Assembly: GCA_017861475.1 (NCBI GenBank) | Contig: JAGFXV010000001.1 | Span: forward strand, 1 to 24,941 | DNA: 24,941 nt | Reading direction: 5' to 3' | DNA from: Bacillota bacterium | GTDB taxonomy: Bacteria > Bacillota > Syntrophomonadia > Syntrophomonadales > Syntrophomonadaceae | Part shown: in pieces, positions 5,218-24,919 of the stretch | Layout of the letters: each line of letters starts with the position of its first letter | Position numbering within the stretch: position 1 is the first letter of the stretch | Made by a program: the position numbers and the translations under genes | The notes under the pieces: model-generated | What the model saw: only the letters and a program-made list of their open reading frames with translations | Database searches by the model: none | What the model was told of the DNA's origin: nothing

Positions 5218-6195
5218 ATGATCAATCAGGTTTTACCGGGTATTTATCGCATCGAAGTACCCTTGCCCAACAACCCGCTGAAAGCAACCAATTCCTGGCT
5301 GATCCGCGGGGAAAAAAGAAATCTGCTGGTGGATACCGGCTTTAATACGGAAGTATCACGTGAAGCCATGGATCATGGACTGCATGAACTGGGTATTAAA
5401 ATGGAGAACACTGACCTGTTTGTTACCCACCTGCATTCCGATCATTCAGGCCTGGTCAACCATCTGGCCACCCCGGAAACAACGGTGTGGATGAGTGAAG
5501 CCGACGGCCAGGTGGTGGCAGAAAGCCGGGAAAGTTTTCACTGGGGCATGTTCAACGAATTTTTGATCGTCAGCGGCCTGGTGGACAGCGGTGTGGAGAA
5601 TGATTTCACCAAACATCCAGGTTACAGATTTGCCTCAGAAGTGTATGAGCGTTTCAACCTGGTGAATGAAGGTTTTGAGATCACCGCGGGTGATTACCGG
5701 TTCCGCTGCGTGGCAACCCCCGGTCATACGCCGGGGCATATGTGCCTGTATGACCCGGAAAAAAAGCTGCTGCTCTCCGGTGATCATATCCTGGGAAAAA
5801 TCACCCCCAATATTACTGCCTGGAACTTCAATACCGATGTTCTCGGCCAATACCTCCAGAGCCTTGATAAAATCGCCCGGTTGGATATTGATACCGTGCT
5901 GCCCGGGCATCGCTATGTCATCACCGACTGTCAGGGGCGGATTGAGGAACTGAGAAAACATCACCGTGCCAGGCTGGATAACGTCCTGGACATCATTGGC
6001 AGCCAAACCATGAATACCACCCAGGTAGCCAGCCGGATGCGCTGGGATCTGTCCTTCAAAAAATGGGAGGATTTCCCCTGGGGGCAGAAGTTGTTTGCCT
6101 CCGGTGAGGCCATGTCCCATTTATATCACCTGACGGTTAAGGGCGAACTGGAGATGAGTCTCGAAAACGAAATCGCCTGGTTCAGTAAAAAATAA
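5218..6195 (+). CDS. Metallo-beta-lactamase-fold hydrolase
   Basis: This 325-residue MBL-fold protein has all core metal ligands: H71-x-H73-x-D75-H76 (THLHSDHSG), H170 (ATPGHTPGH), D189 (LLSGDHIL) and H231 (LPGHRYV). This set binds two metal ions and is typical of glyoxalase II-like and related thioester or ester hydrolases. The roughly 90-residue C-terminal part (from about 235) is helical and resembles the winged-helix-like tail of LACTB2-type proteins. No substrate can be named. AAGGAG just upstream supports the ATG. Only 30 bases separate it from ftsH, so the two probably form an operon. Its stop codon (6193-6195) lies inside a perfect palindrome that I read as an activator site for the next gene. 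Confidence 0.88.
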   Translation: MINQVLPGIYRIEVPLPNNPLKATNSWLIRGEKRNLLVDTGFNTEVSREAMDHGLHELGIKMENTDLFVTHLHSDHSGLVNHLATPETTVWMSEADGQVVAESRESFHWGMFNEFLIVSGLVDSGVENDFTKHPGYRFASEVYERFNLVNEGFEITAGDYRFRCVATPGHTPGHMCLYDPEKKLLLSGDHILGKITPNITAWNFNTDVLGQYLQSLDKIARLDIDTVLPGHRYVITDCQGRIEELRKHHRARLDNVLDIIGSQTMNTTQVASRMRWDLSFKKWEDFPWGQKLFASGEAMSHLYHLTVKGELEMSLENEIAWFSKK

Positions 6196-6212
6196 TGCAA
6201 TATTGCATTATT
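6191..6212. promoter_or_regulatory. Upstream activator site 1 (perfect palindrome)
   Basis: This is a 22-base perfect palindrome centred at 6201.5 with core TGCA-ATAT-TGCA (6196-6207). It overlaps the stop codon of the preceding gene. The same TGCA-N4-TGCA spacing recurs twice further downstream, before a sigma-54 promoter. I infer it is a remote binding site for the activator encoded at 7983-9722; its centre is about 240 bases upstream of the predicted transcription start. Confidence 0.6.
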
Positions 6213-6283
6213 TATGCTGCGCTTAGGCTGCCTGACAGCGGTTAAAATCCGGCGGAATCAACGTTATTGGCTTTCATTATGGT

Positions 6284-6324
6284 TAATGCACCACTGCATT
6301 ATTAACCGATGCGGTGGTGCATTA
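6284..6324. promoter_or_regulatory. Upstream activator sites 2 and 3, also a 16-bp stem-loop
   Basis: Two TGCA-N4-TGCA-type boxes sit here in mirror arrangement: TGCACCACTGCA (6287-6298) and TGCGGTGGTGCA (6310-6321, one mismatch). Their centres are 23 bases apart, about two helical turns, and lie about 148 and 125 bases before the predicted start of the CoA-transferase transcript. Together they form a stem of arms 6284-6299 and 6309-6324 with a 9-base loop. A T-rich stretch (ATCTATTTTTATT) follows, so the structure could also end transcription from the ftsH-hydrolase operon. Both roles may coexist. Confidence 0.6.
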
Positions 6325-6414
6325 TCTATTTTTATTAGACATTTTTACACAGCAGGGAAATATTACTTTGGCTTTATATCAGTTCTTATTCTGCCTATCT
6401 GGTTATACTGTTAC

Positions 6415-6430
6415 TGGCATGATTATTGCA
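6415..6430 (+). promoter_or_regulatory. Sigma-54 (-24/-12) promoter of the CoA-transferase gene
   Basis: The sequence TGGCATGATTATTGCA matches the sigma-54 consensus TGGCAC-R-N4-TTGCW at all but one position, with GG at 6416-6417 and GC at 6428-6429 in exact phase. Predicted start is near 6441, giving a leader of about 58 bases ending in AAAGGAGGT. The presence of a sigma-54 activator gene just beyond the CoA-transferase, and of spaced palindromes upstream, makes a chance match unlikely. The rest of the 304-base gap (6196-6499) holds only the palindromes and AT-rich spacer. Confidence 0.85.
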
Positions 6431-6499
6431 TTTTAATTGGTTGATCGGACAAGTTATATGAATTATTAATCAATGCATTGGATAAAGGAGGTCGTTATA

Positions 6500-7861
6500 A
6501 TGAACTGGCAGGAAGAATACAAGAAAAAACTAATCACCGCAGAAGAAGCGGCCAAACTGGTCAAATCAGGCGATTGGGTGGAATACGGTTTCGGCATCAA
6601 CTGCGCCCGGGATTTTGATGAAGCGCTGGCCCGCAGGGTGGACGAACTGACCGATGTGAAAATACGCTGTGATATCGGCGCTTACCAGCACTTTACCGCC
6701 GAGGCTGACCCGAAAGGGACTCACTTCCTGTGGAACAGCTGGCATGTATCGGCACATGACAAAAAATTTATAGGCAAGAATTTATTCTATATCCCCATGA
6801 AATTTCATGAAAACCCCATGATGACCCGCAAGGACTGTATCCCGGACAATGTGTTCGTCATGCAGGTCACGTCCATGGACAAACATGGATACTTTAACTT
6901 CGGCGGCAGTGCCGTAAACGGCTGGGCAGCAATGGAAACCGCCCGCATCACCATCCTGGAAGTGAATGACAAGATGCCCCGCTGTTTGGGAGGTAGTCAG
7001 GAAAACGTCCACATCAGCCAGGTGGATTATATCATCGAGAGCAAGAATGAACCGATCCTGACTCTGGCCTCATCCAATCCCAGCCAGGTGGAAGAGGAAA
7101 TCGCCAAACACATCATCGACAGGCTGTATAACGGCAATTGTATCCAGCTAGGCATCGGCGGCACACCCAATGCAGTGGGGAAAATGGTGGCGGCTTCCGA
7201 TCTGAAGGATCTGGGTGTACACACGGAAATGTATGTGGATGCCTATCTGGAAATGTTCAAAGCCGGCAAAATAACAGGTTCACACAAAAATATCGATCGC
7301 TACAAACAGGTTTATTCATTTGTTATGGGCAGCCAGGAGCTTTACGATTATATCGATGACAATCCAGGACTGGCCTCCTATTCGGTCGATTACACCAATG
7401 ATCCGAAAGTCATTGCCCAGATCGATGATTTTGTTTCCATCAATGCCTGCATCGAAGTCGACCTTTTCGGGCAGGTCTGCTCCGAATCAGTCGGGACCAG
7501 ACATATCAGCGGCACCGGAGGCCAGCTGGACTTTGTGGAAGGTGCCTACAAATCAAAAGGGGGCCAGAGCTTCATCTGCCTGCCCTCCACCATTGATATC
7601 AAAGGGAAAGTCGGTTCGCGCATCAAACCGGTTTTGACCCCGGGGGCCATCGTGACTTCCCCCAGAACCGCCACCCACATGCTGGTCACCGAATACGGGA
7701 TTGCCAGCATGAAAGGCAAGAGCACCTGGGAGAGAGCCGAAGCGCTGATCAATATCGCTCATCCCGATTTCAGAGATATGCTGGTCGCAGAGGCCGAAAA
7801 CATGAATATCTGGCGCAGATCAAACAAGATCGAGGGAGCCGAAGCGGTTATCAACTACTAG
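6500..7861 (+). CDS. Acetyl-CoA hydrolase/transferase family CoA-transferase, butyryl-CoA:acetate type
   Basis: This is a 453-residue family I CoA-transferase that exchanges CoA between a short acyl-CoA and a carboxylate. The catalytic glutamate is E243 in GVHTEMYVDA. The oxyanion/CoA loop is SGTGGQLDFVEGA, preceded by QLGIGGTPNAV (about 216-226). Segments such as SGDWVEYG, HFLWNSWH, GYFNFG, EVNDKMPRCLGG and the ending AHPDFRD..WRRSN look most like butyryl-CoA:acetate CoA-transferases of butyrate producers; 4-hydroxybutyrate CoA-transferase is the main alternative. The frame is open from 6473, but those nine codons contain the ribosome binding site AAAGGAGGT (6484-6492), so ATG 6500 is the start. 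It is the sole gene behind a sigma-54 promoter and ends in a strong terminator. Confidence 0.9.
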   Translation: MNWQEEYKKKLITAEEAAKLVKSGDWVEYGFGINCARDFDEALARRVDELTDVKIRCDIGAYQHFTAEADPKGTHFLWNSWHVSAHDKKFIGKNLFYIPMKFHENPMMTRKDCIPDNVFVMQVTSMDKHGYFNFGGSAVNGWAAMETARITILEVNDKMPRCLGGSQENVHISQVDYIIESKNEPILTLASSNPSQVEEEIAKHIIDRLYNGNCIQLGIGGTPNAVGKMVAASDLKDLGVHTEMYVDAYLEMFKAGKITGSHKNIDRYKQVYSFVMGSQELYDYIDDNPGLASYSVDYTNDPKVIAQIDDFVSINACIEVDLFGQVCSESVGTRHISGTGGQLDFVEGAYKSKGGQSFICLPSTIDIKGKVGSRIKPVLTPGAIVTSPRTATHMLVTEYGIASMKGKSTWERAEALINIAHPDFRDMLVAEAENMNIWRRSNKIEGAEAVINY

Positions 7862-7890
7862 AGCACAGGTTGCACTTATACGGAAAATAT

Positions 7891-7944
7891 AAAAAGCCTG
7901 TTCGGTCAGCGTACATATAGTGCGCCAAATCGAGCGGGCTTTTT
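7891..7944. terminator. Bidirectional terminator, part of composite palindromic repeat (copy A)
   Basis: Outer arms AAAAAGCCTGTTCG (7891-7904) and CGAGCGGGCTTTTT (7931-7944) pair with two G-T wobbles and one T-G. An inner stem GCGTAC/GTGCGC (7909-7914 with 7920-7925) sits in the loop. T runs on both strands suit the convergent CoA-transferase and activator genes. The stretch up to about 7980 (CTTCGC, TTCTGTTG, TTTTAG) matches the right half of the repeat at 14957-15055, so this terminator belongs to a dispersed element. Confidence 0.75.
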
Positions 7945-7982
7945 GCAAGTTATGATCTTCGCTTTTTAGTCATTCTGTTGTT

Positions 7983-9722
7983 TTAGTGTTTTATCCCATA
8001 GCGATTGGCTTTGCGTATGACGGTGGACTGATCGATCCCCAGCACCCGGGCGATCTGGTAACTGGAGGAGTAACGGGCAAAAGCATCGATCAGAAGTTCC
8101 CTTTCCGTGTTTTCCAGAGCCTCACGCATGGTGGACAGCGGTTTGTCTTCACCTGACAGGCCGGAACCGGCCCTGATATTGGCAGGCAGATCGTGAACTG
8201 TAATAATGTCATGGATACAGGTGACGACCAGCCGCTCCATCAGGTTTTCCAGTTCCCGGATGTTGCCCGGCCAGTTATATTCGATCAGCGCATTATAAAC
8301 GCCGGTATCGATGCGCTTTTCCATGCCGTATTTCTGGTTGAAAATATTGATGAAGTGATTCATCAGCGCGGGAATATCTTCCCGGTGTTCCCGCAGCGGC
8401 GGAACGATGACCGGGACCACATTGAGCCGGTAAAACAGATCCAGACGAAATTCCTTGTTCTCGATCATTTCCTCCAAATCGCGGTTCGTTCCGGCAATGA
8501 CCCGGCAATCGATCTTGATGGGGGAGGTCCCGCCGACCCGCAGCACGCTTCGATCCTGCAGCACCCGCAGCAGTTTGACCTGTAACTTCATGGGCAGTTC
8601 CCCGATCTCATCCAGAAATATAATGCCTCCCTGGGCCAGCTCAAACAAACCTGCCTTGCCGGTCTTGCTGGCTCCGGTAAAGGCTCCGCTCTCATAACCG
8701 AAAAGTTCCGACTCCAGCAGATTTTCGGGGATCGCTCCGCAGTTTACCCGGACAAAAGGCCCCTCCTTGTACCTGCTGTTGGTATGAATGATTTCCGCGA
8801 TCAACTCCTTGCCGACCCCTGACTCTCCTTGCAGCAACACGGTCGAATCCACCTTGGCAATACGAATGACCATGTTGATCAATTCCTTCATCTTGCTCGA
8901 AGTCATCACCAGGCTGCGGGAATTCTGCAGCTTCAGTTGTTGCAGTTCGGTTTTGTACATTTCCTGCAGACTTTCGACCCGTTCCAACTTGCGCTCCAGC
9001 ATGTTGAACTCAGTTTTGTCCCGGACATTGGTGACGACCAGAACGATGTTGCCTTTATCATCAAAGATCGGATTGCTGGTGACCAGCGCTTCATTGCCGC
9101 TTTTGGCAGTAAGGGCAATGGTCACCCGCTCTCTTTTTTCCAGCGCAGCCAGCGTAGCCGATTTGAGAAATACTCCTTCGCGAACCAAATCGACCATGTT
9201 CCGGCCAACAACTTGTTCGGCAGTAACGCCCATGATGCGTTCAAAACCCTGATTGACTTTCAAAATGTTGGCCTGGCCGTCGGTCACGCTCAGACCGTCG
9301 AAGGATGATGCGATGATTGCCTCCAACTCGCGGTTCAGCCTGCGAGTGTATTCCGATTCACGGATCAACTGCTCGATTTCCGATACATCACGAAGTACCA
9401 GCACCCGGCCGACATATTTCCCTTCAATGAAGATATCCTTGCTGAAGGGGATGTAACGATTTTCCTTCAAAGTGATTTTATTATCCGGATAGATCGATTC
9501 CTGTTTTAATAAATCAAGTATTTCACGGTTTTCAATAACGTCTGTTGCGGGGATGGTAATGACCATCTGGGCATCCAGGTCGAGCACCTGCGCCATGCGT
9601 TTGTTAAAGACCTTTATTCTTCCATGGGTATCAATAGCCATGATGGGGGTGTAGACAGCATCGAGCAAAGCCCTGAACCTTGCCACATCATTATATGGAT
9701 CAACATTTTCAAATGCTATCAC
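7983..9722 (-). CDS. Sigma-54-dependent transcriptional activator with two PAS domains
   Basis: This is a 579-residue enhancer-binding protein. PAS domain 1 spans about 14-115 and PAS 2 about 130-240. A coiled-coil linker (about 240-268) leads to a AAA+ domain (about 272-505) with Walker A GESGVGKE (299-306), the sigma-54 contact loop GAFTGA (346-351) and Walker B GIIFLDEIGEL (366-376). A short TyrR-like C-terminal HTH (about 537-579, SYQIARVLGIDQSTVIRK) completes it. There is no response-regulator receiver domain, so the signal probably acts through the PAS domains (small ligand or redox). The start is a GTG at 9722 with AAGGAG nine bases upstream; no nearby ATG has such a site. It is convergent with the CoA-transferase gene, whose sigma-54 promoter it probably drives. 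Confidence 0.93.
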   Translation of the reverse strand: MIAFENVDPYNDVARFRALLDAVYTPIMAIDTHGRIKVFNKRMAQVLDLDAQMVITIPATDVIENREILDLLKQESIYPDNKITLKENRYIPFSKDIFIEGKYVGRVLVLRDVSEIEQLIRESEYTRRLNRELEAIIASSFDGLSVTDGQANILKVNQGFERIMGVTAEQVVGRNMVDLVREGVFLKSATLAALEKRERVTIALTAKSGNEALVTSNPIFDDKGNIVLVVTNVRDKTEFNMLERKLERVESLQEMYKTELQQLKLQNSRSLVMTSSKMKELINMVIRIAKVDSTVLLQGESGVGKELIAEIIHTNSRYKEGPFVRVNCGAIPENLLESELFGYESGAFTGASKTGKAGLFELAQGGIIFLDEIGELPMKLQVKLLRVLQDRSVLRVGGTSPIKIDCRVIAGTNRDLEEMIENKEFRLDLFYRLNVVPVIVPPLREHREDIPALMNHFINIFNQKYGMEKRIDTGVYNALIEYNWPGNIRELENLMERLVVTCIHDIITVHDLPANIRAGSGLSGEDKPLSTMREALENTERELLIDAFARYSSSYQIARVLGIDQSTVIRKANRYGIKH

Positions 9723-15116: not shown

Positions 15117-16532
15117 TTACATAAATAGCTGTATGGCAGTCTGGGCCAGGTTCGACAAAGGAGCCGGGTAAACGCCCAGGAAAATCGTGCCCAGCAGGCA
15201 GATCCACATGGCGAACCGAGCTACGCCGCCTACTTCCATCTTTTCATTGGGTTTGGCTTCCTCTCCAATATACATCACCTTGGCCACCTGCAAATAATAG
15301 TACACCGAAATCATACTCATGATGAGGCCAATAAAGGCCAGCCATAAGTACCCGGATTGAACAGCGCCGGAGAAAAGGTAGAACTTGCCGGCAAATCCGG
15401 CCAGGGGTGGGATGCCGGCCAGCGACAGCATGCAAATCGTCATGACCGCTGCCAGCAGGGGGGAGCGGTTGCCAAGTCCGGCAAAAGATGATATATCCGT
15501 ACTGCCGGTATCTACTTCCACTGCCGTAGCCACGGCAAAAGCTCCGGTATTGGAAAACACATAAAGCATGGCATAAAACAGAACGCCTTTCAGACCATAG
15601 GCATTGGCGGCCACCAGACCAGCCAGGATATAACCGGCCTGGGCGATGCTGGAATAGGCCAGCAGCCGTTTGACATCTTTTTGCGTAAGGGCGATCAGAT
15701 TGCCAATAATGATCGTTAAAGCAGCCAGGACAGCCAGCATCAAGGTCCAATTAAACTGCGACAGGGGCAGGGCAATCATAAAAATCCTTACCAGGGCGGC
15801 AAATCCGGCTGCTTTGGAGCCAACCGCCAGATAGGTCGTTACCGGGATGGGTGCTCCCTGATAAATATCCGGTGCCCACATATGAAAAGGTACGGCTGAT
15901 ATTTTAAAGGCAAAACCGGCCAAAAGCATTACAATTCCAGCAATGAGAGCGGGCTGCGTATTGATTTTTGCGGCAATCTCACCGATCACGGTGGTGCCGC
16001 TCAAAGCATAAATCAGGCTGACCCCGAACAGCATGACCGCCGAGGAAACAGCGCCCAGAATGAGGTATTTGAGTCCTGCTTCAGCGGATCGTTCGTCATT
16101 CAGCAGATAAGCCGTTAGAATATAGAAACTGACCGTCATCAGTTCCAACCCCAGATAAACCGTGATCAAATCACCGGCACAGGCCATGATCATCATACCC
16201 AGGGTTGCAAAGATCATCAGCGCATAAAACTCACTCGATCTTTCCCGGAATCGTTCGATATACTTGCCGGTACTGAGCATGACCAGCAAAGCAGCAAGCA
16301 AAAAGAGGATTTTAAAGAAGCTGCCGTAGCTGTCCACCAGATAGATCCCGCCAAAAAATGATTGGTGCACATGAAACCTGAAGATTGTATAGATCAGCAC
16401 CAGTAACAATGCCAGTACGGACATTTTACCGACTATTTCCCTGCCCCTTTGCGGCAGCACAAGTCCGGAAACAAGCACCAGCAGTCCGATCACAGCGGTA
16501 AGGATTTCGGTTGCAAGCAAGCTGTAATCCAT
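15117..16532 (-). CDS. nuoN: NADH-quinone oxidoreductase-type subunit N
   Basis: This 471-residue antiporter-like proton-pumping subunit of complex I has about 14 membrane helices. Family marks are the pump glutamate E130 in YLGLELMTVSFYILTAYL, the lysine-bearing broken-helix region PFHMWAPDIYQGAPIPVTTYLAVGSKAAG, and a C-terminal GGVARFAMW..FLGVYP segment. It is the last gene of the operon. Its ATG overlaps the nuoM stop by one base (TAATG), and its ribosome binding site is a G7 run inside the last nuoM codons. It ends 24 bases before the right hairpin of the composite repeat. Confidence 0.95.
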   Translation of the reverse strand: MDYSLLATEILTAVIGLLVLVSGLVLPQRGREIVGKMSVLALLLVLIYTIFRFHVHQSFFGGIYLVDSYGSFFKILFLLAALLVMLSTGKYIERFRERSSEFYALMIFATLGMMIMACAGDLITVYLGLELMTVSFYILTAYLLNDERSAEAGLKYLILGAVSSAVMLFGVSLIYALSGTTVIGEIAAKINTQPALIAGIVMLLAGFAFKISAVPFHMWAPDIYQGAPIPVTTYLAVGSKAAGFAALVRIFMIALPLSQFNWTLMLAVLAALTIIIGNLIALTQKDVKRLLAYSSIAQAGYILAGLVAANAYGLKGVLFYAMLYVFSNTGAFAVATAVEVDTGSTDISSFAGLGNRSPLLAAVMTICMLSLAGIPPLAGFAGKFYLFSGAVQSGYLWLAFIGLIMSMISVYYYLQVAKVMYIGEEAKPNEKMEVGGVARFAMWICLLGTIFLGVYPAPLSNLAQTAIQLFM

Positions 16533-18040
16533 TAAAAAATCCCCCCCATCTGAATCGTACCGATCTGGGCCAGCAATCCGCTAACCCCGCTGGAAATGGG
16601 ATCCATTACCAGCGACGGGAAGATACCACCGACCAGGATGGCCGTTCCCAGAACGATCAAGGGAATCATTTCCGGCCCCTTAAGGTCCTGCAGATGATCC
16701 CACTGTTCCTTGCGCGGTCCGTAAAGAAGATCCGCCATGGTCCTGAGGATATAAACAGCGGTCAAAATGATCCCGGTAATGGCAATGATGGCGACCACCT
16801 TGAATACGCTGAAAGCACCGACAAAGATGGTGAACTCACCGATAAAGTTCACCGTTCCCGGCAGCCCCAGCGAAGCCAGACCAGCCAGCATGAAGCCGAC
16901 TGCCAGGCGGGGCATCTGGTGGGCCAGTCCACCGAAATCATTCACGTTGCGGGTATGACTCTTTTCATATAAATTGCCGATCATGGAGAAGAACAAGGCA
17001 GCCATCACCCCATGGGCGAACATCATCATGACCGCACCGTTGATGCTGATCACATTAAGTGCGGCAATACCGATCAACACATAGCCCATATGACTGACAC
17101 TGGAATAACCGACGATATATTTCAAATCCTTTTGGCTGAGACAAATAAAAGCGGCATACACTACGTTGCCAATGGCCAGTACGGCAATGATCGGGGCAAT
17201 AAATTTAGCGCCGGCCGGAAGGATAAACAAGCCGATACGGATCAACCCGTACCCTCCGATTTTTTTCAAAACCCCGGCATGGATCATACTGACGGCCGTC
17301 GGTGCCCCGGCATATCCATCCGGTGACCAGGCATGAAACGGAAACATCGACAAAAGCGTTCCAAAGCCAAAGGCCATCAGGGCATAGACAAAGATCTGGA
17401 AGCCCACCGGGAAGTCCACCCCGGCCAGTTTGGTGATATCCATGGTGGGGTAACCCAGCATCCCTTGCGCGGTTACGAATAAAGCAATCAAACCGACCAG
17501 CAGGAAAGCACTGCCGATTAATAAATAAATGGTCAGTTTCATGCCGGCATATTCCTTGGTAACTCTTTTGGTGGAGCCCCACATAATCACCAGCAAATAG
17601 ATGGGGATGACCACCACTTCATAAAACATAAAGAAAATGAAGAGGTCGGTGGCGACAAACGTTCCCATGACCCCGGTGATCAGGATCAACAGGAGAGTAA
17701 AGAATTCCTTGACCCGTTCCCGGATGTTCCAGGACGCGTAAACGGCTGAAAAACCTATCAGATTGGTCAGCAGCAGCAGGGGCATGCTGATCCCGTCCAC
17801 TCCCAGGGCATAGGAAACGCCCAGATCTTTGATCCAGGGAATGCTTTCGATAAACTGCATCCCCCCGGTGCTGCGGTCATAGGTAATGAACACCAGCAGT
17901 GACAAGGCCAGGCTGATAAAAGTGCTCAAGGCGGAGATATATTTGATGGCTTTTTCCTGGTCTTTGGGCAAGGCCATAATGATAATGGCACCAATAACCG
18001 GAATGAACAGGGTCAATGACAATATCGGCATATGATTCAT
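16532..18040 (-). CDS. nuoM: NADH-quinone oxidoreductase-type subunit M
   Basis: This 502-residue antiporter-like subunit has the key glutamate E141 in FFMFYEVVVIPIYLLVIMWG. It also has the PFHAWSPDGYAGAPTAVSMIHAGVLKKIGGYGLIRIG stretch that holds the broken helix and pump lysine, and SSVSHMGYVLIGIAAL. It forms one of the three proton channels of the membrane arm. AGGAGG lies ten bases before ATG 18040; a second ATG three codons in (MPILSL) is possible. The last five residues (QMGGI, F) are coded across a G7 run that also serves nuoN. It is 15 bases downstream of nuoL. Confidence 0.95.
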   Translation of the reverse strand: MNHMPILSLTLFIPVIGAIIIMALPKDQEKAIKYISALSTFISLALSLLVFITYDRSTGGMQFIESIPWIKDLGVSYALGVDGISMPLLLLTNLIGFSAVYASWNIRERVKEFFTLLLILITGVMGTFVATDLFIFFMFYEVVVIPIYLLVIMWGSTKRVTKEYAGMKLTIYLLIGSAFLLVGLIALFVTAQGMLGYPTMDITKLAGVDFPVGFQIFVYALMAFGFGTLLSMFPFHAWSPDGYAGAPTAVSMIHAGVLKKIGGYGLIRIGLFILPAGAKFIAPIIAVLAIGNVVYAAFICLSQKDLKYIVGYSSVSHMGYVLIGIAALNVISINGAVMMMFAHGVMAALFFSMIGNLYEKSHTRNVNDFGGLAHQMPRLAVGFMLAGLASLGLPGTVNFIGEFTIFVGAFSVFKVVAIIAITGIILTAVYILRTMADLLYGPRKEQWDHLQDLKGPEMIPLIVLGTAILVGGIFPSLVMDPISSGVSGLLAQIGTIQMGGIF

Positions 18041-18055
18041 TCTGCCTGCACCTCC

Positions 18056-19936
18056 TTACGCCAGGGCCGAGAATACGGCACATAATGCTGAAACCAGCAG
18101 TACCACGATCCCGGCAAACATATACAGGGCATAGCTCTGAACCTGCCCGTTTTCCGTATAGCGCAAGGCATACCCGGAACGACCTGTAACGGCAGCGATC
18201 GCATTGACCGCGCCGTTGATCACATACAGGTCGAACCATTCCAGGATTTTAGCCGAACCATCGATAAAGTGTTTAATCAGCCAGGCATAGCATTCATCAA
18301 TATAGTATTTGTGATAAAGCAGGTTATACAGCCCGCGGAAGCGTATTTTTAAGGCTGCATGATCGATCACCTGTTTCTGATAAACCAGATAGGCCAGATA
18401 AATTCCAGCCAGGGCAATGACGGCTGAAACCGCCATGACGGTCAGGTTGGCTTCATGATGCACCGCTCCGGCAAAGGTAACATAATGGGCAAAGGCATTG
18501 TTCATCAGCGGCGAGCCGACGAAACCGGCCAGTACGGAGATAACTGCCAGAATGATCAGCGGCACCGTCATCACTGCCGGTGATTCATGGGCATGTTCGC
18601 CGGCGGTATTTTTTCCGAAGAAAGCCACAAATATCAGTCTGAACATATAGAAAGCGGTCATAAATGCAACCAGCGTTCCTAAAATATATAGCCCTATATG
18701 GCCGCCGGCAAAAGCGCCCAGCAGAATCTCATCCTTGCTCCAGAATCCGGATAGAGGAGGGATACCGCTCAGCGCCAGCGCGCCGATGACAAAGGTCCAG
18801 GTGGTAACCGGCATTTTTTTGCTCAGGTTGCCCATTTTCCAGATATCCTGTTCATCATGCAGGGCATGGATCACCGAACCCGCCCCGAGGAAGAGCAGAC
18901 TCTTGAAGAAAGCGTGGGTCATCAAATGAAACATCCCGGCAGTCATCGCCCCGATACCCATGGCCATGACCATATAACCAAGCTGGGAAAGGGTCGAATA
19001 AGCCAGAATACGTTTTATGTCATTTTGTACCAGAGCGATACTGGCGGCAAACAGGGCGGTGAATCCGCCGATCGTCGCAATTAACGTCATGGTAGGTGCC
19101 GAGGTATTAAAGATAAACATGGCCCGGGCAATCAAATATACGCCGGCTGCCACCATGGTGGCAGCATGGATCAGGGCCGAAACCGGAGTAGGGCCTTCCA
19201 TGGCATCAGGCAGCCAGACATGTAGCGGGAACTGGGCCGATTTGCCCACTGGCCCAAAGAACAGCAGGATGGAGATCCCGATTAAAATTCCCGAATTGGC
19301 ATAAGCGGGAATCGCTGCGGCTAATTCGCTGAAGTTCAAAGTCCCGAAAATGACCTGTAGGAAAAGAATCCCCAGCAGGAAGCCAAAATCCCCCACCCGG
19401 TTGGTGATAAAGGCCTTCTTGGCAGCCTCTTTGGCCGAGTTGCGCCCAAACCAGAAGCCGATCAACAAATAAGAACAGAGCCCGACTAATTCCCAGAACA
19501 CGAAAATCTGTCCGAAATTATTGGCAACCACCAGGCCCAGCATGGAGCCGGCGAAAATGCTCTGGTAGGCGTAATAGCTTGCCAGGCCGGGGTCGCCGTG
19601 CATATAGCCCAGCGAATAGATCTGCACCAGCAAGGCCACCAGCGTGACCACCAACAGCATCACCGCTGTCAGCGGATCGATCAACAATCCCATATCCACC
19701 CTGAGACCGGGCATCGACAGCCAGCGGGTTGCCGTCTCATAGACCACTCCTTCAGCATTTCCGAATACAACCAGTGCCACCATTACAGATAAAACAAATG
19801 AGACTGCAATCATGGCAATGGACAACGCCGCCGAAAGTTTCGGCCAGCGATGCATAAACAGCCCGATCAGGGCAAAAGTCAAAAATGGCAGGAAGGGGAT
19901 CAGCCAGGCATTTTGCAAGATGTTTTGTAAAATCAT
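18056..19936 (-). CDS. nuoL: NADH-quinone oxidoreductase-type subunit L
   Basis: This 626-residue distal proton-pumping subunit of complex I is full length, including the C-terminal lateral helix region. It has E149 in FVFWELVGLCSYLLIGFW, K232 in GPVGKSAQFPLHVWLPDAMEGPTP with H239 and D244, and the SALIHAATMVAAGVYLIAR broken-helix segment. Near the C-terminus (about 510-560) the soluble NLLYHKYYIDECY motif typical of NuoL is present. A GGGGGGG run serves as the ribosome binding site, 13 bases after the end of nuoK. Confidence 0.96.
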   Translation of the reverse strand: MILQNILQNAWLIPFLPFLTFALIGLFMHRWPKLSAALSIAMIAVSFVLSVMVALVVFGNAEGVVYETATRWLSMPGLRVDMGLLIDPLTAVMLLVVTLVALLVQIYSLGYMHGDPGLASYYAYQSIFAGSMLGLVVANNFGQIFVFWELVGLCSYLLIGFWFGRNSAKEAAKKAFITNRVGDFGFLLGILFLQVIFGTLNFSELAAAIPAYANSGILIGISILLFFGPVGKSAQFPLHVWLPDAMEGPTPVSALIHAATMVAAGVYLIARAMFIFNTSAPTMTLIATIGGFTALFAASIALVQNDIKRILAYSTLSQLGYMVMAMGIGAMTAGMFHLMTHAFFKSLLFLGAGSVIHALHDEQDIWKMGNLSKKMPVTTWTFVIGALALSGIPPLSGFWSKDEILLGAFAGGHIGLYILGTLVAFMTAFYMFRLIFVAFFGKNTAGEHAHESPAVMTVPLIILAVISVLAGFVGSPLMNNAFAHYVTFAGAVHHEANLTVMAVSAVIALAGIYLAYLVYQKQVIDHAALKIRFRGLYNLLYHKYYIDECYAWLIKHFIDGSAKILEWFDLYVINGAVNAIAAVTGRSGYALRYTENGQVQSYALYMFAGIVVLLVSALCAVFSALA

Positions 19937-19949
19937 AATTTACCCCCCC

Positions 19950-20258
19950 TCACCACTTCAGTAGATTGAAATCATTCAGGTTGACTGATTTCTTGTGCCG
20001 ATAGATGGAAATAATCAGCGCCAGGCCGACCGCGACCTCCGCCGCTGCCACCACGATCACAAAAAGCGCAATCGTATGGCCCAGACCCGTTCCCGGCGTA
20101 ACGAATTTTTCTATGGCGACAAAATTTATATTGACTGCATTCAGCATCAATTCCACTGACATTAACACGGCAATCGCGTTGCGTTTGGACAATACGCCAA
20201 ACATACCAATGCCGAACAAGAGGGAAGCGAAAATCAAGTAATGGGCAAGCCCGATCAT
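19950..20258 (-). CDS. nuoK: NADH-quinone oxidoreductase-type subunit K
   Basis: This 102-residue, three-helix membrane subunit has both conserved buried acids of the proton path: E36 in LMSVELMLNAVNINFV and E74 in VVAAAEVAVGLAL. It overlaps nuoJ by four bases (ATGA), which points to translational coupling. Length and sequence are ordinary for the family. Confidence 0.95.
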   Translation of the reverse strand: MIGLAHYLIFASLLFGIGMFGVLSKRNAIAVLMSVELMLNAVNINFVAIEKFVTPGTGLGHTIALFVIVVAAAEVAVGLALIISIYRHKKSVNLNDFNLLKW

Positions 20259-20764
20259 TTATCTTCCACTCCCTTCGCCAGCAAGATCGCTCCAAACACA
20301 GCTACCAGCAGCAATATGGCTGCCACTTCAAAAGAAACCACATACGGTCCCAGCAACATCCCGGCCAGTTTTTCAACCCCCTGGTCCCCGACCTGGACCG
20401 CACTGAGCGGCCATTTCGTAAACCAGATGGCGCCAGCCAGCCCGGCTGCCAGCAGCACACTGACATAACCACCGGCCATGATGGTGGGTGTACTTTGATT
20501 AAACAAATTGGTTTGATCCGGCTCAACATCCATCACCAGCATGATGGCAAAAATAATTAAAACCGAAATGGCTCCGGCATAGACCATGATCTGTACCAGG
20601 CCGACAAATCCGGCATTCAGCTGAAAATATATCCCGGCCACACCCAGAAAGGTCAGCACCAGGAACAGGGCTGAGTGAATGATGTTCCTGGAAAGGACAA
20701 CCCCCAGTGCGGCCAGCAGCGTAATGCCGGCCAGGGCGATAAAAACGATATCATTCAGGCTCAC
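20255..20764 (-). CDS. nuoJ: NADH-quinone oxidoreductase-type subunit J
   Basis: This 169-residue membrane subunit has about five helices, with the conserved FLGVAGIYFQLNAGFVGLVQIMVYAGAISVLIIFAIMLV region, whose third helix includes the pi-bulge involved in coupling. The start codon is a GTG at 20764 that overlaps the nuoI stop (GTGA). It is coupled to nuoK at its 3' end. Confidence 0.94.
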   Translation of the reverse strand: MSLNDIVFIALAGITLLAALGVVLSRNIIHSALFLVLTFLGVAGIYFQLNAGFVGLVQIMVYAGAISVLIIFAIMLVMDVEPDQTNLFNQSTPTIMAGGYVSVLLAAGLAGAIWFTKWPLSAVQVGDQGVEKLAGMLLGPYVVSFEVAAILLLVAVFGAILLAKGVEDK

Positions 20765-21435
20765 GCTACCACATTTCCTTCCTTGGGGTGATCTTTTGCT
20801 GCCTTGTTGGCCAATGCACCCGCTACTTTTTTGGCTTTCTCTATATCTTCGACCATCATCACCGCTATTTTTTCCAGTTTATCCTGATCGGAAGCAAGAG
20901 CTGCCGCCAGAACTTTGCCCTTTTCCTCATCTTCCAGAAGTTTGCCCAGAATTTTGGGGGCATCCTTTTGCAGTGCACCGATCATTACGCTAATCCGTTT
21001 CTGATTCTTTTCTTCAGCTGCAACGATTTCTTCAGGCAAGTCTGTGACCAATTCCTGCGGGCGTTGATAAACTTTTTTGATATTTTCCCGATCATACGCG
21101 GCAAGTTCAAAGTTATGATCGAAGTGCAAACAATGCTTGGGACAATTTTCCACACAAAAATTACAGTACATGCAGTATTGAAAATCAATTGAATAAGACA
21201 TCAATTTTTTCTTGTTGGTTTTATCATCCCGGACTGATTCAAGGCTTAAAACGCCATTCGGACAAACCTTGGTACACATCTCGCAGGCAATACAATCCTG
21301 GAAGTCAAGCTGCAGATTCCCGCGAAAGCGCGCCGGCAGCACCGGCATCTGTTCCGGGTATTGCTGGGTAATTTCCCTTTCAAAAGTATGTTTCAGGGTA
21401 ATTCCCAATCCTTTTAACAAACCTGTTCCGTACAT
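20761..21435 (-). CDS. nuoI: NADH-quinone oxidoreductase-type subunit I (2[4Fe-4S]) with C-terminal extension
   Basis: At 224 residues it is longer than most NuoI. Two ferredoxin motifs, C48-x2-C51-x2-C54-x3-C58-P and C88-x2-C91-x2-C94-x3-C98-P, bind clusters N6a and N6b, which pass electrons to NuoB. After the ferredoxin core ends near residue 138 comes an unusual tail of about 85 residues. It is rich in Lys, Glu and Ala and probably helical (KILGKLLEDEEKGKVLAAAL, DKLEKIAVMMVEDIEKAKKV). With no nuoE, nuoF or nuoG in the operon, this subunit is a likely entry point for electrons from ferredoxin; the tail might help docking, which is speculation. The ribosome binding site (GGTGAT) is weak. It starts six bases after nuoH. 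Confidence 0.94.
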   Translation of the reverse strand: MYGTGLLKGLGITLKHTFEREITQQYPEQMPVLPARFRGNLQLDFQDCIACEMCTKVCPNGVLSLESVRDDKTNKKKLMSYSIDFQYCMYCNFCVENCPKHCLHFDHNFELAAYDRENIKKVYQRPQELVTDLPEEIVAAEEKNQKRISVMIGALQKDAPKILGKLLEDEEKGKVLAAALASDQDKLEKIAVMMVEDIEKAKKVAGALANKAAKDHPKEGNVVA

Positions 21436-21441
21436 CTAAAA

Positions 21442-22479
21442 TCACCATCCCATCCTCATTAAAACTTCTATGCCTGCGCCGGTGAGCAAAATATTGGCCA
21501 GACTCACCGGAATAAGAAACTTCCAACTGAAAGACATCAGATGATCCATCCGGATCCGGGGGAACGTCCACTTTATCAGGAAAAACACATTCAAAATAAG
21601 GTAGGTCTTAATGATGATCCACAGCCAGGAAGGCAGCCACGGTCCTTGCCAGCCGCCAAAAAATACGGTGGCCATCAGCGCCGACACAGCCACCAGATTG
21701 GTGTATTCCGCCAGGAAGAACAACGCCCAGCGCATGCCGGTATATTCCGTATAGGCACCGGAGGTCAGTTCCTGTTCCGCTTCCGGCATATCAAAAGGCC
21801 CACGGTTTAATTCCGCCGTCGCGGATATAAAATAGGTTATAAAGGCGATGGGCTGTAAAACCACGAACCAGATGTTGCTCTGGGCGGCCACAATATCAGA
21901 CATTCTGAGTGATCCTGTGATCATGACCACGCCTAAAAGGGAAAAGGCCAGGGGGATTTCATAGGAGATCATCTGCGCCACCGAACGCATTCCACCCAGA
22001 AGCGACCATTTGTTGTTTGAACCCCATCCCGCCATCAGCAGCGCAATGGTACTTAAAGAACCAATGGAAATGAAATAGAATAGACCTACATTCAGATCAA
22101 CAATTTCCATTCCGTCCCCCATGGGAATAACCACATACAACATGACTGAAATAATAATAAAAACCATGGGAGCGGTTTTGAAAATCATCCTGTCCGTTTG
22201 GGAAGGAACAATATCTTCCTTGGTCAGAAGCTTGATGGCGTCAGCAATAGTCTGAAACATGCCAAACGGACCCAGGCGATTCGGTCCCAGACGTTGTTGA
22301 ATGAAACCGGAGACCTTGCGCTCCAACCAGATCAAAACGGTAATATTGAGGATAACGATAATAATAACGGCAATCCACTGTACGACCAGCAGAATCAGAT
22401 CAGCCCAGCCCGGTGCCAATCCCAGACCTGTCAGCCATGCGACCAGGGCATGGGCAGTATTCACAAAGAAATGTTCCAT
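21442..22479 (-). CDS. nuoH: NADH-quinone oxidoreductase-type subunit H
   Basis: This 345-residue membrane subunit forms the quinone-entry chamber with NuoB and NuoD. Conserved blocks are ERKVSGFIQQRLGPNRLGPFG, the TIADAIKLLTKEDIVP segment and the acidic loop AELNRGPFDMPEAEQEL followed by GAYTEYTGMRWALFFLAEY. The open frame goes up to 22533 across the end of nuoD. I start at ATG 22479, which has AGGAG ten bases upstream and gives the normal MEHFF... start, leaving a 13-base gap to nuoD. Confidence 0.95.
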   Translation of the reverse strand: MEHFFVNTAHALVAWLTGLGLAPGWADLILLVVQWIAVIIIVILNITVLIWLERKVSGFIQQRLGPNRLGPFGMFQTIADAIKLLTKEDIVPSQTDRMIFKTAPMVFIIISVMLYVVIPMGDGMEIVDLNVGLFYFISIGSLSTIALLMAGWGSNNKWSLLGGMRSVAQMISYEIPLAFSLLGVVMITGSLRMSDIVAAQSNIWFVVLQPIAFITYFISATAELNRGPFDMPEAEQELTSGAYTEYTGMRWALFFLAEYTNLVAVSALMATVFFGGWQGPWLPSWLWIIIKTYLILNVFFLIKWTFPRIRMDHLMSFSWKFLIPVSLANILLTGAGIEVLMRMGW

Positions 22480-22492
22480 AAATATATCACTC

Positions 22493-23593
22493 CTATCGAT
22501 CTGCTTCGCCCAGAACCGGGTCCAGGGTGGCAATATTGGCGATAATATCCTGCAGCTTACCGCCCCGGGAAATCAGGGGCAAAACCATCAAATTGATGAA
22601 AGAAGGGGCCCGCACATGCAGGCGATAGGGTTTTTCTCCGCCGTCTGATACGATATAATATCCCAGTTCGCCCTTGGCTGATTCGATACGATGATACACT
22701 TCCAGACCTTTTTCCGGTTTCACAATCCGGGGGATCTTAGCCCGGATCTCACCTTCGGGCAGTTGATCCAGAGCCTGCGTGATAATCCGGCCGCTTTGTT
22801 CAATTTCCTGGAGACGGACCATGAAGCGGTCATAGTTGTCTCCTTTTTCACCCAGCGGCACATCGAATGCAAAACGATCATAAATACCGTACGGTTCAGC
22901 TTTGCGAAGATCATAATCCACGCCGCTGGCCCTTAAATTTGGCCCGGTGATCCCGTAATTGATGGCATCTTCGGCGGATAAAACGCCGATGTTTTTCAGC
23001 CTCGCCTGCAGGATCTCGTTGCCGCTCAGCAAATGGTTATATTCATCAAACATCTGCGGGATATTTTTAAGAAAGTTTCGGGCGGCAGGAATAAATTCCT
23101 CGGGAAGATCTTCGGCGAAGCCCCCAAAACGCATATAGGAAGCAATCATCCTTTGGCCGCTGGTCATCTCAAACAAATCCAGGATCTTTTCCCGGTCACG
23201 CATACAATAGGTGAAACCGGTGGTGGCCCCCAGATCGATCGCCAAACTGCCCACGAAAAGAATATGGGAAGCAATCCTTGAAAACTCACCCATAATGATA
23301 CGGATGTACTCGGCCCGTTCCGGCACATGAATGTCCAGCATCTTTTCCACCGTCTGCACGTAACCCATGGTCGGCAGATGGCTGGCCAGATAATCAAGAC
23401 GGGAAGCATAGGGAATGAATTGGGTATAGGTCCGGCTTTCGGCAATCTTTTCCACCGCCCGGTGCACATAGCCCACATGCACGATCGCATCCACGATCGT
23501 TTCTCCGTCCATCACCGCTTCCACATGCAGTCCGCCGTGGGTACTGGGATGGATCGGGCCGATATTGATGTTGTATTGATCAGTTTGTAACAT
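22493..23593 (-). CDS. nuoD: NADH-quinone oxidoreductase-type subunit D (49 kDa)
   Basis: This 366-residue subunit is of the NiFe-hydrogenase-large-subunit lineage. It has the quinone-site HPSTHGGLH loop (15-23), the YTQFIPYASRLDYLASH segment, and the closing ATLDPVLGEADR that stands in place of the CxxC nickel ligands of hydrogenases. That identifies a complex I subunit, not an energy-converting hydrogenase. It overlaps nuoC by 14 bases and is a separate gene, unlike the fused nuoCD of enterobacteria. Confidence 0.95.
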   Translation of the reverse strand: MLQTDQYNINIGPIHPSTHGGLHVEAVMDGETIVDAIVHVGYVHRAVEKIAESRTYTQFIPYASRLDYLASHLPTMGYVQTVEKMLDIHVPERAEYIRIIMGEFSRIASHILFVGSLAIDLGATTGFTYCMRDREKILDLFEMTSGQRMIASYMRFGGFAEDLPEEFIPAARNFLKNIPQMFDEYNHLLSGNEILQARLKNIGVLSAEDAINYGITGPNLRASGVDYDLRKAEPYGIYDRFAFDVPLGEKGDNYDRFMVRLQEIEQSGRIITQALDQLPEGEIRAKIPRIVKPEKGLEVYHRIESAKGELGYYIVSDGGEKPYRLHVRAPSFINLMVLPLISRGGKLQDIIANIATLDPVLGEADR

Positions 23594-24053
23594 TTTCCCG
23601 TCCCCTCATCGTAAAATCCTTGCGCAGCGGATGGCCCACATAATCATCCGGCATAAGTATGCGAACCAGATTGGGATGATTTTTAAAAGTGATGCCCATC
23701 AGATCATATACTTCCCGTTCCTGCCAATCGGCGGTGGGCCATACCGGAAATACCGAATCAATTTCCGGTTTATTGGCGGGTACCCGTGTCTTTATCACAA
23801 TCTTGCGGTTGGCTGGAATAGAGTATAGATGATAGACGATTTCAAAGCTTCCATGGCTGTCGATGTAGTCGACCGCGGTCAGGTCAGCCAGATGATTGAA
23901 GCCGTATTTATCCCGCAATATTCTGGACAACGCCAGCAAATCTCCGGGATTTGTATGCAAAAATGTAAAAAACCTGTCCTGGTAAATCACCAGCTTTTCT
24001 CCCATCTGTTGCTGCAGCTCCTGCAGCATGTCTTGCGGGTCGTATTCACTCAT
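23580..24053 (-). CDS. nuoC: NADH-quinone oxidoreductase-type subunit C (30 kDa)
   Basis: This 157-residue subunit has the signature WQEREVYDLMGITFKNHPNLVRILMPDDYVGHPLRKDF (about 114-150), which packs NuoC against NuoD. The frame also allows an ATG at 24062, but AAGGAG directly abuts that codon. The ATG at 24053 (MSEYDPQDML) has nine bases of spacing and is preferred. It lies 36 bases after nuoB. Confidence 0.93.
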   Translation of the reverse strand: MSEYDPQDMLQELQQQMGEKLVIYQDRFFTFLHTNPGDLLALSRILRDKYGFNHLADLTAVDYIDSHGSFEIVYHLYSIPANRKIVIKTRVPANKPEIDSVFPVWPTADWQEREVYDLMGITFKNHPNLVRILMPDDYVGHPLRKDFTMRGRENVTN

Positions 24054-24089
24054 AACGTTCATCTCCTTGTACTGGGATAGACGATTCTA

Positions 24090-24569
24090 TTATTGTTTCT
24101 CTACCTTTTTTTTCAATTCCAGCAAACCCTGAAAAGGGGCTTCCGGTCGCACCGGACAACCGGGGATATAGACATCAACATGAAAAATTGTATCCGCCCC
24201 GGGGAGTACACTGTATCCGTCCACAAAAGGCCCGCCGCTGACAGCGCAATTACCCATGGCTACCACCCATTTTGGTTCTGCCATCTGTGCCCATACTCTT
24301 TCCACCGCCGGTTTCATCTTGGCTGTGATCGGACCGGCCACCACCAGAACATCAGCCTGGCGCGAGGCTGCGCGGAAGACCTCATATCCGTAGCGGGCAA
24401 TATCGAAGCGCGCCGCACCCGAGGCCATCATTTCAATGGGGCAGCAGTTGCAGCCATAGGACAAGGGCCAGAAAGAACGGGATCTGCCCCAGTTCCACAG
24501 TTTTTCAAAAGTCGTGACGATGATATTGTTTTTCGCCAATATTTCCTCGTCATGGTTGTTTACCGCCAC
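24090..24569 (-). CDS. nuoB: NADH-quinone oxidoreductase-type subunit B (cluster N2)
   Basis: This 159-residue subunit carries the terminal [4Fe-4S] cluster N2, which reduces quinone. Ligands are the tandem C42-C43 in [13 protein letters not shown]108 in MGNCAVSGG and C138 in [10 protein letters not shown]. An additional Cys (C40) sits two residues before the tandem pair. A longer frame begins at ATG 24590, but those codons contain the GGAGGGAG ribosome binding site, so I start at GTG 24569, overlapping the end of nuoA by ten bases. ATG 24590 cannot be fully excluded. Confidence 0.94.
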
Positions 24570-24919
24570 TGCAAGGCTCCCTCCTTCCATGCATACCAGA
24601 GCCCGAGCACCAGTATGGCAATAAAGATCAACATCTCTCCAAACGCAAACAGGCCCAGACTTTTAAATTTAACCGCCCAGGGAAAGAGAAAAACGGTTTC
24701 CACGTCAAATGCCAGGAATACCAGGGCATAAAGAAAATAATTGACCCGAAAGCGGATCCAGGTTTTACCGATCGTATCCACTCCGCACTCATAAGTGGTA
24801 AGTTTTTCCCGGTCCTGTTTAGGCTTGGGCCGCACCAGCCAGGCTGTTGCCATGGCTGCGACCGGAAAAGCGATGGTTAATAATAGAAAGATTCCAATAA
24901 TTCCGTAATCGCTTAACAT
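24560..24919 (-). CDS. nuoA: NADH-quinone oxidoreductase-type subunit A
   Basis: This 119-residue, three-helix membrane subunit has the diagnostic YECGVDTIG loop (about 43-51) and [16 protein letters not shown] (about 68-83). It is the first visible gene of the operon. AGGAGG at about 24929-24934 (minus strand) sits nine bases before ATG 24919. Only 22 bases lie beyond the start, so the operon promoter is not in view; a TATAAT at the very edge (minus strand) is too close to the ribosome binding site to be its -10. Confidence 0.95.

Follow-up and report, generated by a model that had tools for sequence, protein, structure and literature searches.

A family-I acyl-CoA transferase gene in the genome of a Syntrophomonadaceae bacterium appears to be run by a dedicated sigma-54 module, in which the gene has its own promoter, its own activator sites and its own activator gene, and whose enzyme would activate a short-chain acid for beta-oxidation; we put the probability of this reading at about 0.86. 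The stretch analysed (hereafter the window) comprises 24,941 nt of contig JAGFXV010000001.1 (assembly GCA_017861475.1), and its genome (G000; 2.34 Mb, 77% complete) is that of an organism which probably lives by short fatty acid breakdown. An earlier note on the window had described a self-contained sigma-54 module at this gene; its observation as a whole is confirmed, and its interpretation is partly supported. The sequence itself shows the promoter, rpoN, the activator domains, sites that are private to this locus, and that site, promoter and activator type recur in relatives; we infer that the activator binds and activates, in which direction the enzyme works in the cell, and what kind of signal is read.

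As we envisage it, the activator would bind palindromes of the form AATGCA-N4-TGCATT located ~90-220 bp upstream of the promoter and, once bound, would loop to the RNA polymerase-sigma-54 complex at 6415. The CoA-transferase promoter would open once its PAS domains sense how much fatty acid is supplied or what the redox state is, and the enzyme would then activate a short-chain acid via CoA exchange, feeding beta-oxidation. The mechanism itself is standard for sigma-54.

Promoter and activator

The -24/-12 element TGGCATGATTATTGCA (TGGCAT-N5-TTGCA; 6415..6430, plus strand) lies 85 nt before the ATG of the CoA-transferase gene at 6500, and transcription would start near 6441, as judged from the -12 position. 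The exact pattern TGGCAYNNNNNTTGCW occurs at 27 sites in the genome versus one for the reversed control, which bears out the near-perfect promoter claimed for this position. Except for its two outer bases, the element agrees with TTGGCATNNNNNTTGCT, given as the Clostridiales sigma-54 consensus in the available text of PMC6615313. A looser consensus, TGGCACNNNNNTTGCW with up to two mismatches, yielded 14 matches in the window against 16.1 expected, not a significant excess, and was rejected as a judge of the promoter, its count not being above chance. The sigma factor gene, for which the earlier note had advised a search, is present as a PF04552 match at G000:C375 (E 9.3e-62, 208 bits).

The predicted activator (7983..9722, minus strand; 579 aa) was delineated by Pfam and motif searches as a PAS-PAS-AAA+-HTH_50 protein, with PAS_8 at aa 14-54, PAS at aa 132-235, Sigma54_activat at aa 272-438 (PF00158, 233.7 bits) and HTH_50 at aa 531-578. 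Its Walker A motif GESGVGKE is at aa 299 and GAFTGA at aa 346 (nt 8670-8687); the HTH_50 domain, which we take to be TyrR-type, contains IDQSTVIRKA, and the gene starts with a GTG behind an AAGGAG ribosome site. The locus thus holds, as far as sequence can tell, what defines a bacterial enhancer-binding protein and its target: an AAA+ domain with Walker A and GAFTGA, rpoN in the genome, and promoter and sites at looping distance. The two PAS domains and the helix-turn-helix that had been announced for the next gene are therefore there, but this gene lies on the minus strand, and so it converges with the CoA-transferase gene instead of following it in one operon.

The PAS domains suggest a small ligand or the redox state as the signal. 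A Pfam scan found no CBS match in the window's activator, whereas an N-terminal CBS match is present in six of the seven scanned activators that share its recognition-helix motif ([ND]QST) and in eight of all ten scanned. CBS pairs bind adenosyl ligands, which suggests such a ligand for the related activators; lacking the domain, the window's protein would not sense it in that way. Both the number of tandem PAS domains and the presence of CBS vary among the activators of L164 (up to five PAS), L166, L045 and L175, as if sensor units had been duplicated and dropped. The best NCBIfam model for the activator is that of PrdR, the sigma-54 activator of proline reductase (NF041552), yet the target is unrelated and the score, 444.4 bits, lies below the cut-off of 795; identity with PrdR or another NCBIfam equivalog was rejected, as all equivalog scores fell below their cut-offs among the 25 of 39 families listed.

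Putative activator sites

The palindrome AATGCA-N4-TGCATT was first noticed in regions upstream of sigma-54 elements. A palindrome scan of the window places an exact putative site, AATGCACCACTGCATT, at 6285..6300 and a second, GATGCGGTGGTGCATT, with two mismatches, at 6308..6323; together, at a spacing of 23 bp, they form a tandem pair that lies 107 nt ahead of the -24 element. A distal exact copy, AATGCAATATTGCATT (6194..6209), overlaps the stop codon of the preceding MBL-fold gene. These two exact copies are the only ones in the genome, and both are within 221 bp of the 6415 promoter. Eight further palindromes with one mismatch occur elsewhere, none of them with a sigma-54 element in the fetched 2-3 kb around it. 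The module therefore deserves the term self-contained, since its exact putative sites lie only at this locus of the incomplete genome.

Among the fetched loci, many of which were chosen for holding the gene or the palindrome, 13 distinct tandem pairs were found, the window's included (22-23 bp apart, at most three mismatches in all; 19 rows, six of them opposite-strand readings), and each of the 13 has a sigma-54 element 85-120 nt downstream within the 75-130 nt searched. Sixty permuted half-sites gave no tandem pair in a 36-sequence subset, where the real motif gave 22 rows, 11 with a promoter; this control supports the pairs and adds nothing on promoter spacing.

Across 61 genomes, exact palindromes number 30, in 20 genomes, versus one for the reversed control. 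At least 14 of the 30, counting the window's two, have a close relative of the activator no more than 10 kb away, and a further nine are followed by a sigma-54 element at the head of beta-oxidation or CoA-transferase genes (three in L213, two in L221, and one each in L214, L220, L223 and L226). Those that do not fit are inside other open reading frames (L224, L225) or have no fitting promoter (L222, L227); the survey covers all but three of the 30 (G043, G048, G058). A composite pattern of site plus promoter matched nine times in eight of 54 family genomes and not once when reversed, and all nine matches precede a gene for thiolase, 3-hydroxyacyl-CoA dehydrogenase or enoyl-CoA hydratase. Related bacteria thus seem to use the same switch for operons of fatty-acid oxidation.

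Helix type and site type, for their part, mostly appear to change together. With the palindrome scored at up to one mismatch within 260 nt, it was found in eight of ten promoters that accompany activators of the [ND]QST helix type, none of which has TGAATCA; promoters beside SQP[TS]-type activators have TGAATCA in nine of nine cases and the palindrome in one. The Fisher p values (0.005 for the palindrome, 1e-5 for TGAATCA) are optimistic, because the rows include close kin and the elements were first seen in part of the same regions. Both [ND]QST misses are S. wolfei-type loci (L217, L218) with weaker pairs.

The CoA-transferase and its operons in relatives

The product of 6500..7861 (plus strand; 453 aa) scores above the cut-offs of PF02550 and PF13336, which places it among family-I acyl-CoA transferases of the 4-hydroxybutyrate/butyryl type, and its Glu243 (HTEMY) aligns with HSEMI of 3gk7 (E 6e-85), whose aligned glutamate is presumably the catalytic one. 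The ATG at 6500 is the likely start, behind a strong Shine-Dalgarno sequence (AAAGGAGGT, 6484-6492) that favours it over 6473, the mechanical start of the open reading frame list. The label butyryl-CoA:acetate-type holds in so far as that equivalog, TIGR03948, is the best NCBIfam model, but the score of 607.5 stays below its cut-off of 674.8.

The protein is an orthologue of Swol_1932 from Syntrophomonas wolfei: it is 83% identical to that of L166, which carries the Swol_1932 peptides, and nests in that clade in a quick tree. The accessible part of PMC3582634 has Swol_1932 form butyryl-CoA, the step by which butyrate enters oxidation. In Syntrophomonadaceae, the orthologous gene is either the last of an operon (e.g., ECH-HBD-thiolase-acyl-CoA dehydrogenase-CoA-transferase) or stands alone, with a convergent activator gene behind; names such as ECH and HBD are drawn from the S. 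wolfei papers, from open reading frame sizes and from resemblance among the loci compared. The fermentation step that had been proposed is thus doubtful, given these sigma-54 beta-oxidation operons and the place of Swol_1932 in butyrate oxidation, and activation of a fatty acid for its oxidation would fit better.

A sigma-54 element (score at least 0.87) heads the operon in all 12 loci with CoA-transferase and activator whose contig reaches the head, among which L164/L165 and L166/L167 are close kin; the count leaves out L168 and L173, where the contig starts inside the operon, and L179, where it starts before the CoA-transferase gene. In L178, with a 68% identical CoA-transferase and no adjacent activator seen, no sigma-54 promoter of the operon-head type was found. 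The synteny that the earlier note had suggested looking for is widespread: at least 33 neighbouring pairs of CoA-transferase and activator genes (within 2.5 kb, among the matches listed) occur in 24 genomes, 29 of them convergent and the other four in the same direction. In the window's own genome, a sigma-54 element within 450 nt upstream was detected for four of 18 CoA-transferase genes, versus one of 18 on the reverse strand, a weak difference (own score at least 0.87; readable starts only, with 20 of 37 matches taken; L015 has just 5 nt upstream).

Points against the module and alternative readings

Several observations weigh against a dedicated module. The proximal site of the window's pair carries two mismatches, and the composite pattern misses the window itself because this copy is degenerate. 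Likewise, both members of the pair before the Swol_2052 operon of S. wolfei are degenerate, with two mismatches each, and an exact copy is further up; the site copies ahead of the thiolase gene there are at L218 5377, 5558 and 5580. A sigma-54 element is not conserved directly before the orthologous genes, where a score above 0.9 within 350 nt was reached only in L065 of 43 other loci; the expectation of an adjacent promoter was accordingly rejected, many orthologues belonging to longer operons that have the promoter at their head. TGAATCA also occurs in one of three promoters with activators of other types (L170). As far as the consulted text of PMC3582634 goes, the Swol_1932-36 cluster was found on both butyrate and crotonate, with no on/off switch evident; the trigger proposed in the earlier note, a specific acid, acyl-CoA or redox signal, is not supported in that form. 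Finally, the tandem pair coincides with an inverted repeat (6284..6324, plus strand) that a terminator scan returned as terminator-like, with one found against 0.4 expected in shuffles.

It is unlikely, though of the alternatives the least so, that this repeat is just the terminator of the MBL-fold gene, with the activator binding elsewhere. Its 17-pair stem and T-rich tail would suit such a role, but the same palindrome recurs in tandem at 22-23 bp before the sigma-54 promoters of further operons, where the spacer letters differ, and tracks the helix type of the activator; besides, the terminator scan did not list the other exact copy, at 6194. The repeat may well play both parts at once, termination of the MBL-fold gene being a possible second role. 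As a separate observation, the inner N4 spacers are exact reverse complements in five of the 13 distinct tandem pairs (window 6285-6323, L062 1492, L204 1501, L209 1501 and L220), so that 39 bp form one long inverted repeat; with equal bases, the chance of this is ~1e-9. A terminator role, cruciform formation or quasi-palindrome correction may be the cause.

Quite improbable, in turn, is that the local activator serves another promoter and that the one at 6415 answers to a different sigma-54 activator of this genome, which has 23 AAA+ matches. Some close activators in relatives (L215-L218) do stand behind thiolase/acyl-CoA dehydrogenase operons that lack this CoA-transferase, and the trees of the two genes conflict. 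Against this, the exact sites have no counterpart elsewhere in the 77% complete genome, the eight one-mismatch sites come without a promoter in their fetched surroundings, and the type of site matches the helix type of the local activator. There is very little to recommend a CoA-transferase gene driven mainly by a sigma-70-type promoter beside an idle -24/-12 match, since the two 9-of-12 sigma-70-like sites in 6150-6520, one of them on the coding strand, are close to the shuffled mean of 1.7, in contrast to the 27 versus 1 of the exact sigma-54 pattern.

Syntrophomonas wolfei and other known systems

Peptides of Swol_1932 and Swol_2052, as given in the available portion of PMC9676460, identify their loci in our set: both of the Swol_1932 peptides match L166, and all six from Swol_2052 match L218. 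The locus of Swol_2052, an acyl-CoA dehydrogenase, shares the window's activator type and palindrome. The CoA-transferase orthologue of S. wolfei differs in that its neighbouring activator is of the SQP[TS] type and TGAATCA lies upstream, and the window-type activator of S. wolfei is behind thiolase and acyl-CoA dehydrogenase genes. PAS/sigma-54 regulators have been noted in S. wolfei, one of which, Swol_0456, was seen only in butyrate-grown cells according to the portion available of PMC4324140. The S. wolfei papers, in the parts at hand, report regulators and fairly stable enzyme levels and mention no operator or sigma-54 promoter for these operons (PMC3582634, PMC4324140, PMC9676460).

The closest described parallels are AhcR, CrbR, XcgR and YctR (with cotX-gntT also named), which resemble the present case, in the main text of PMC6615313 as far as available, by a sigma-54 promoter, an activator usually near its single target operon, often multiple upstream sites, mostly 100-250 bp away, and C4 acyl-CoA genes as a target. 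Their targets, however, belong to butyrate/butanol synthesis in Clostridium, Geosporobacter and Clostridioides, whereas the window is from Syntrophomonadaceae, where kindred operons serve oxidation. The sites of AhcR, CrbR and XcgR read TGT-N10-12-ACA instead of AATGCA-N4-TGCATT (a similar motif may stand in the supplement or figure 3), their helix-turn-helix is Fis-type (PF02954) instead of HTH_50, and Syntrophomonas is not named in that portion of the main text. In the literature searched, which consisted of titles and abstract openings with few subscription papers, the S. wolfei genome paper being outside it, no description of this operator and regulator group was found.

How a syntroph chooses among its many beta-oxidation paralogues is apparently an open question. 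A named palindrome, an activator group and a promoter, with a weaker version before the Swol_2052 operon of S. wolfei, make it directly testable. Somewhat short of even odds, we would tentatively generalize that syntrophic fatty-acid oxidisers run these many paralogues via insulated sigma-54 modules, each target operon closing with a convergent activator (CBS-PAS or PAS) that has a site code to itself; target and regulator would travel and re-pair as cassettes, the sensor would read an adenylate/acyl-CoA or redox signal, and the window would hold a captured, reduced cassette with the CoA-transferase only and an activator without CBS.

History of the module

The CoA-transferases of the window and L045 nest among SQP[TS]-partnered ones, and their activators among the [ND]QST type. 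One common history of both genes was rejected, as [ND]QST-partnered CoA-transferases do not form one clade (approximately unbiased test, p 0.00015; quick tree, with groups named after the sequences had been seen); the pair thus seems to have been re-matched. In L045, a 39-aa acyl-CoA dehydrogenase tail was too weak to tell the source module.

In the congener G001, the FtsH, MBL-fold and macro-domain genes are successive, with ~100 bp between the last two. Homology to G001 breaks off at the stop codon of the MBL-fold gene, at the beginning of the first palindrome, and a weak similarity returns ~100 bp short of the macro-domain gene. Since these two genes adjoin in G001, the module looks inserted as a block of ~6.9 kb (6196 to ~13075) that comprises the CoA-transferase, the activator, ApbA-like, LysR and, presumably, MetF genes. 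Next to the MBL-fold gene, the module is also absent from G002, G014 and G012, the other relatives for which this region was retrieved, G002 having a 36% identical CoA-transferase ~3.6 kb away; the window's lineage more probably gained the module by insertion than the others lost it. Identity to G001 is 82-87% for CLS, MBL, macro and the part of FtsH that is available, and hence the contig belongs to the genus.

Further features

Between the convergent genes, a possible bidirectional terminator was read by eye (AAAAAGCC ... GGCTTTTT; 7885..7950). The genome holds 37 matches to the CoA-transferase and 23 to the sigma-54 activator domain, and further tail-to-tail pairs occur at C409 (activator/CoA-transferase) and C320 (activator/acyl-CoA dehydrogenase). 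In L164, L165, L166, L174, L175 and L176, a leader of ~270-430 nt separates the sigma-54 element from the first called gene, compared with 85 nt in the window. In L063, L064, L103, L061, L048 and L051, the intergenic stretch just ahead of the CoA-transferase gene holds a different inverted repeat (GTGCGGAGTTC...GAACTCCGCAC type, then an AT-rich run), possibly an mRNA processing or stability element. Farther along the window (15117-24919), gene order suggests a complex I operon, whose NuoD-like protein went unmatched at 1e-80 in G022, an S. wolfei-like genome, and whose genes, without E, F and G in the window, we take to be those of NuoA, B, C, D, H, I, J, K, L, M and N.

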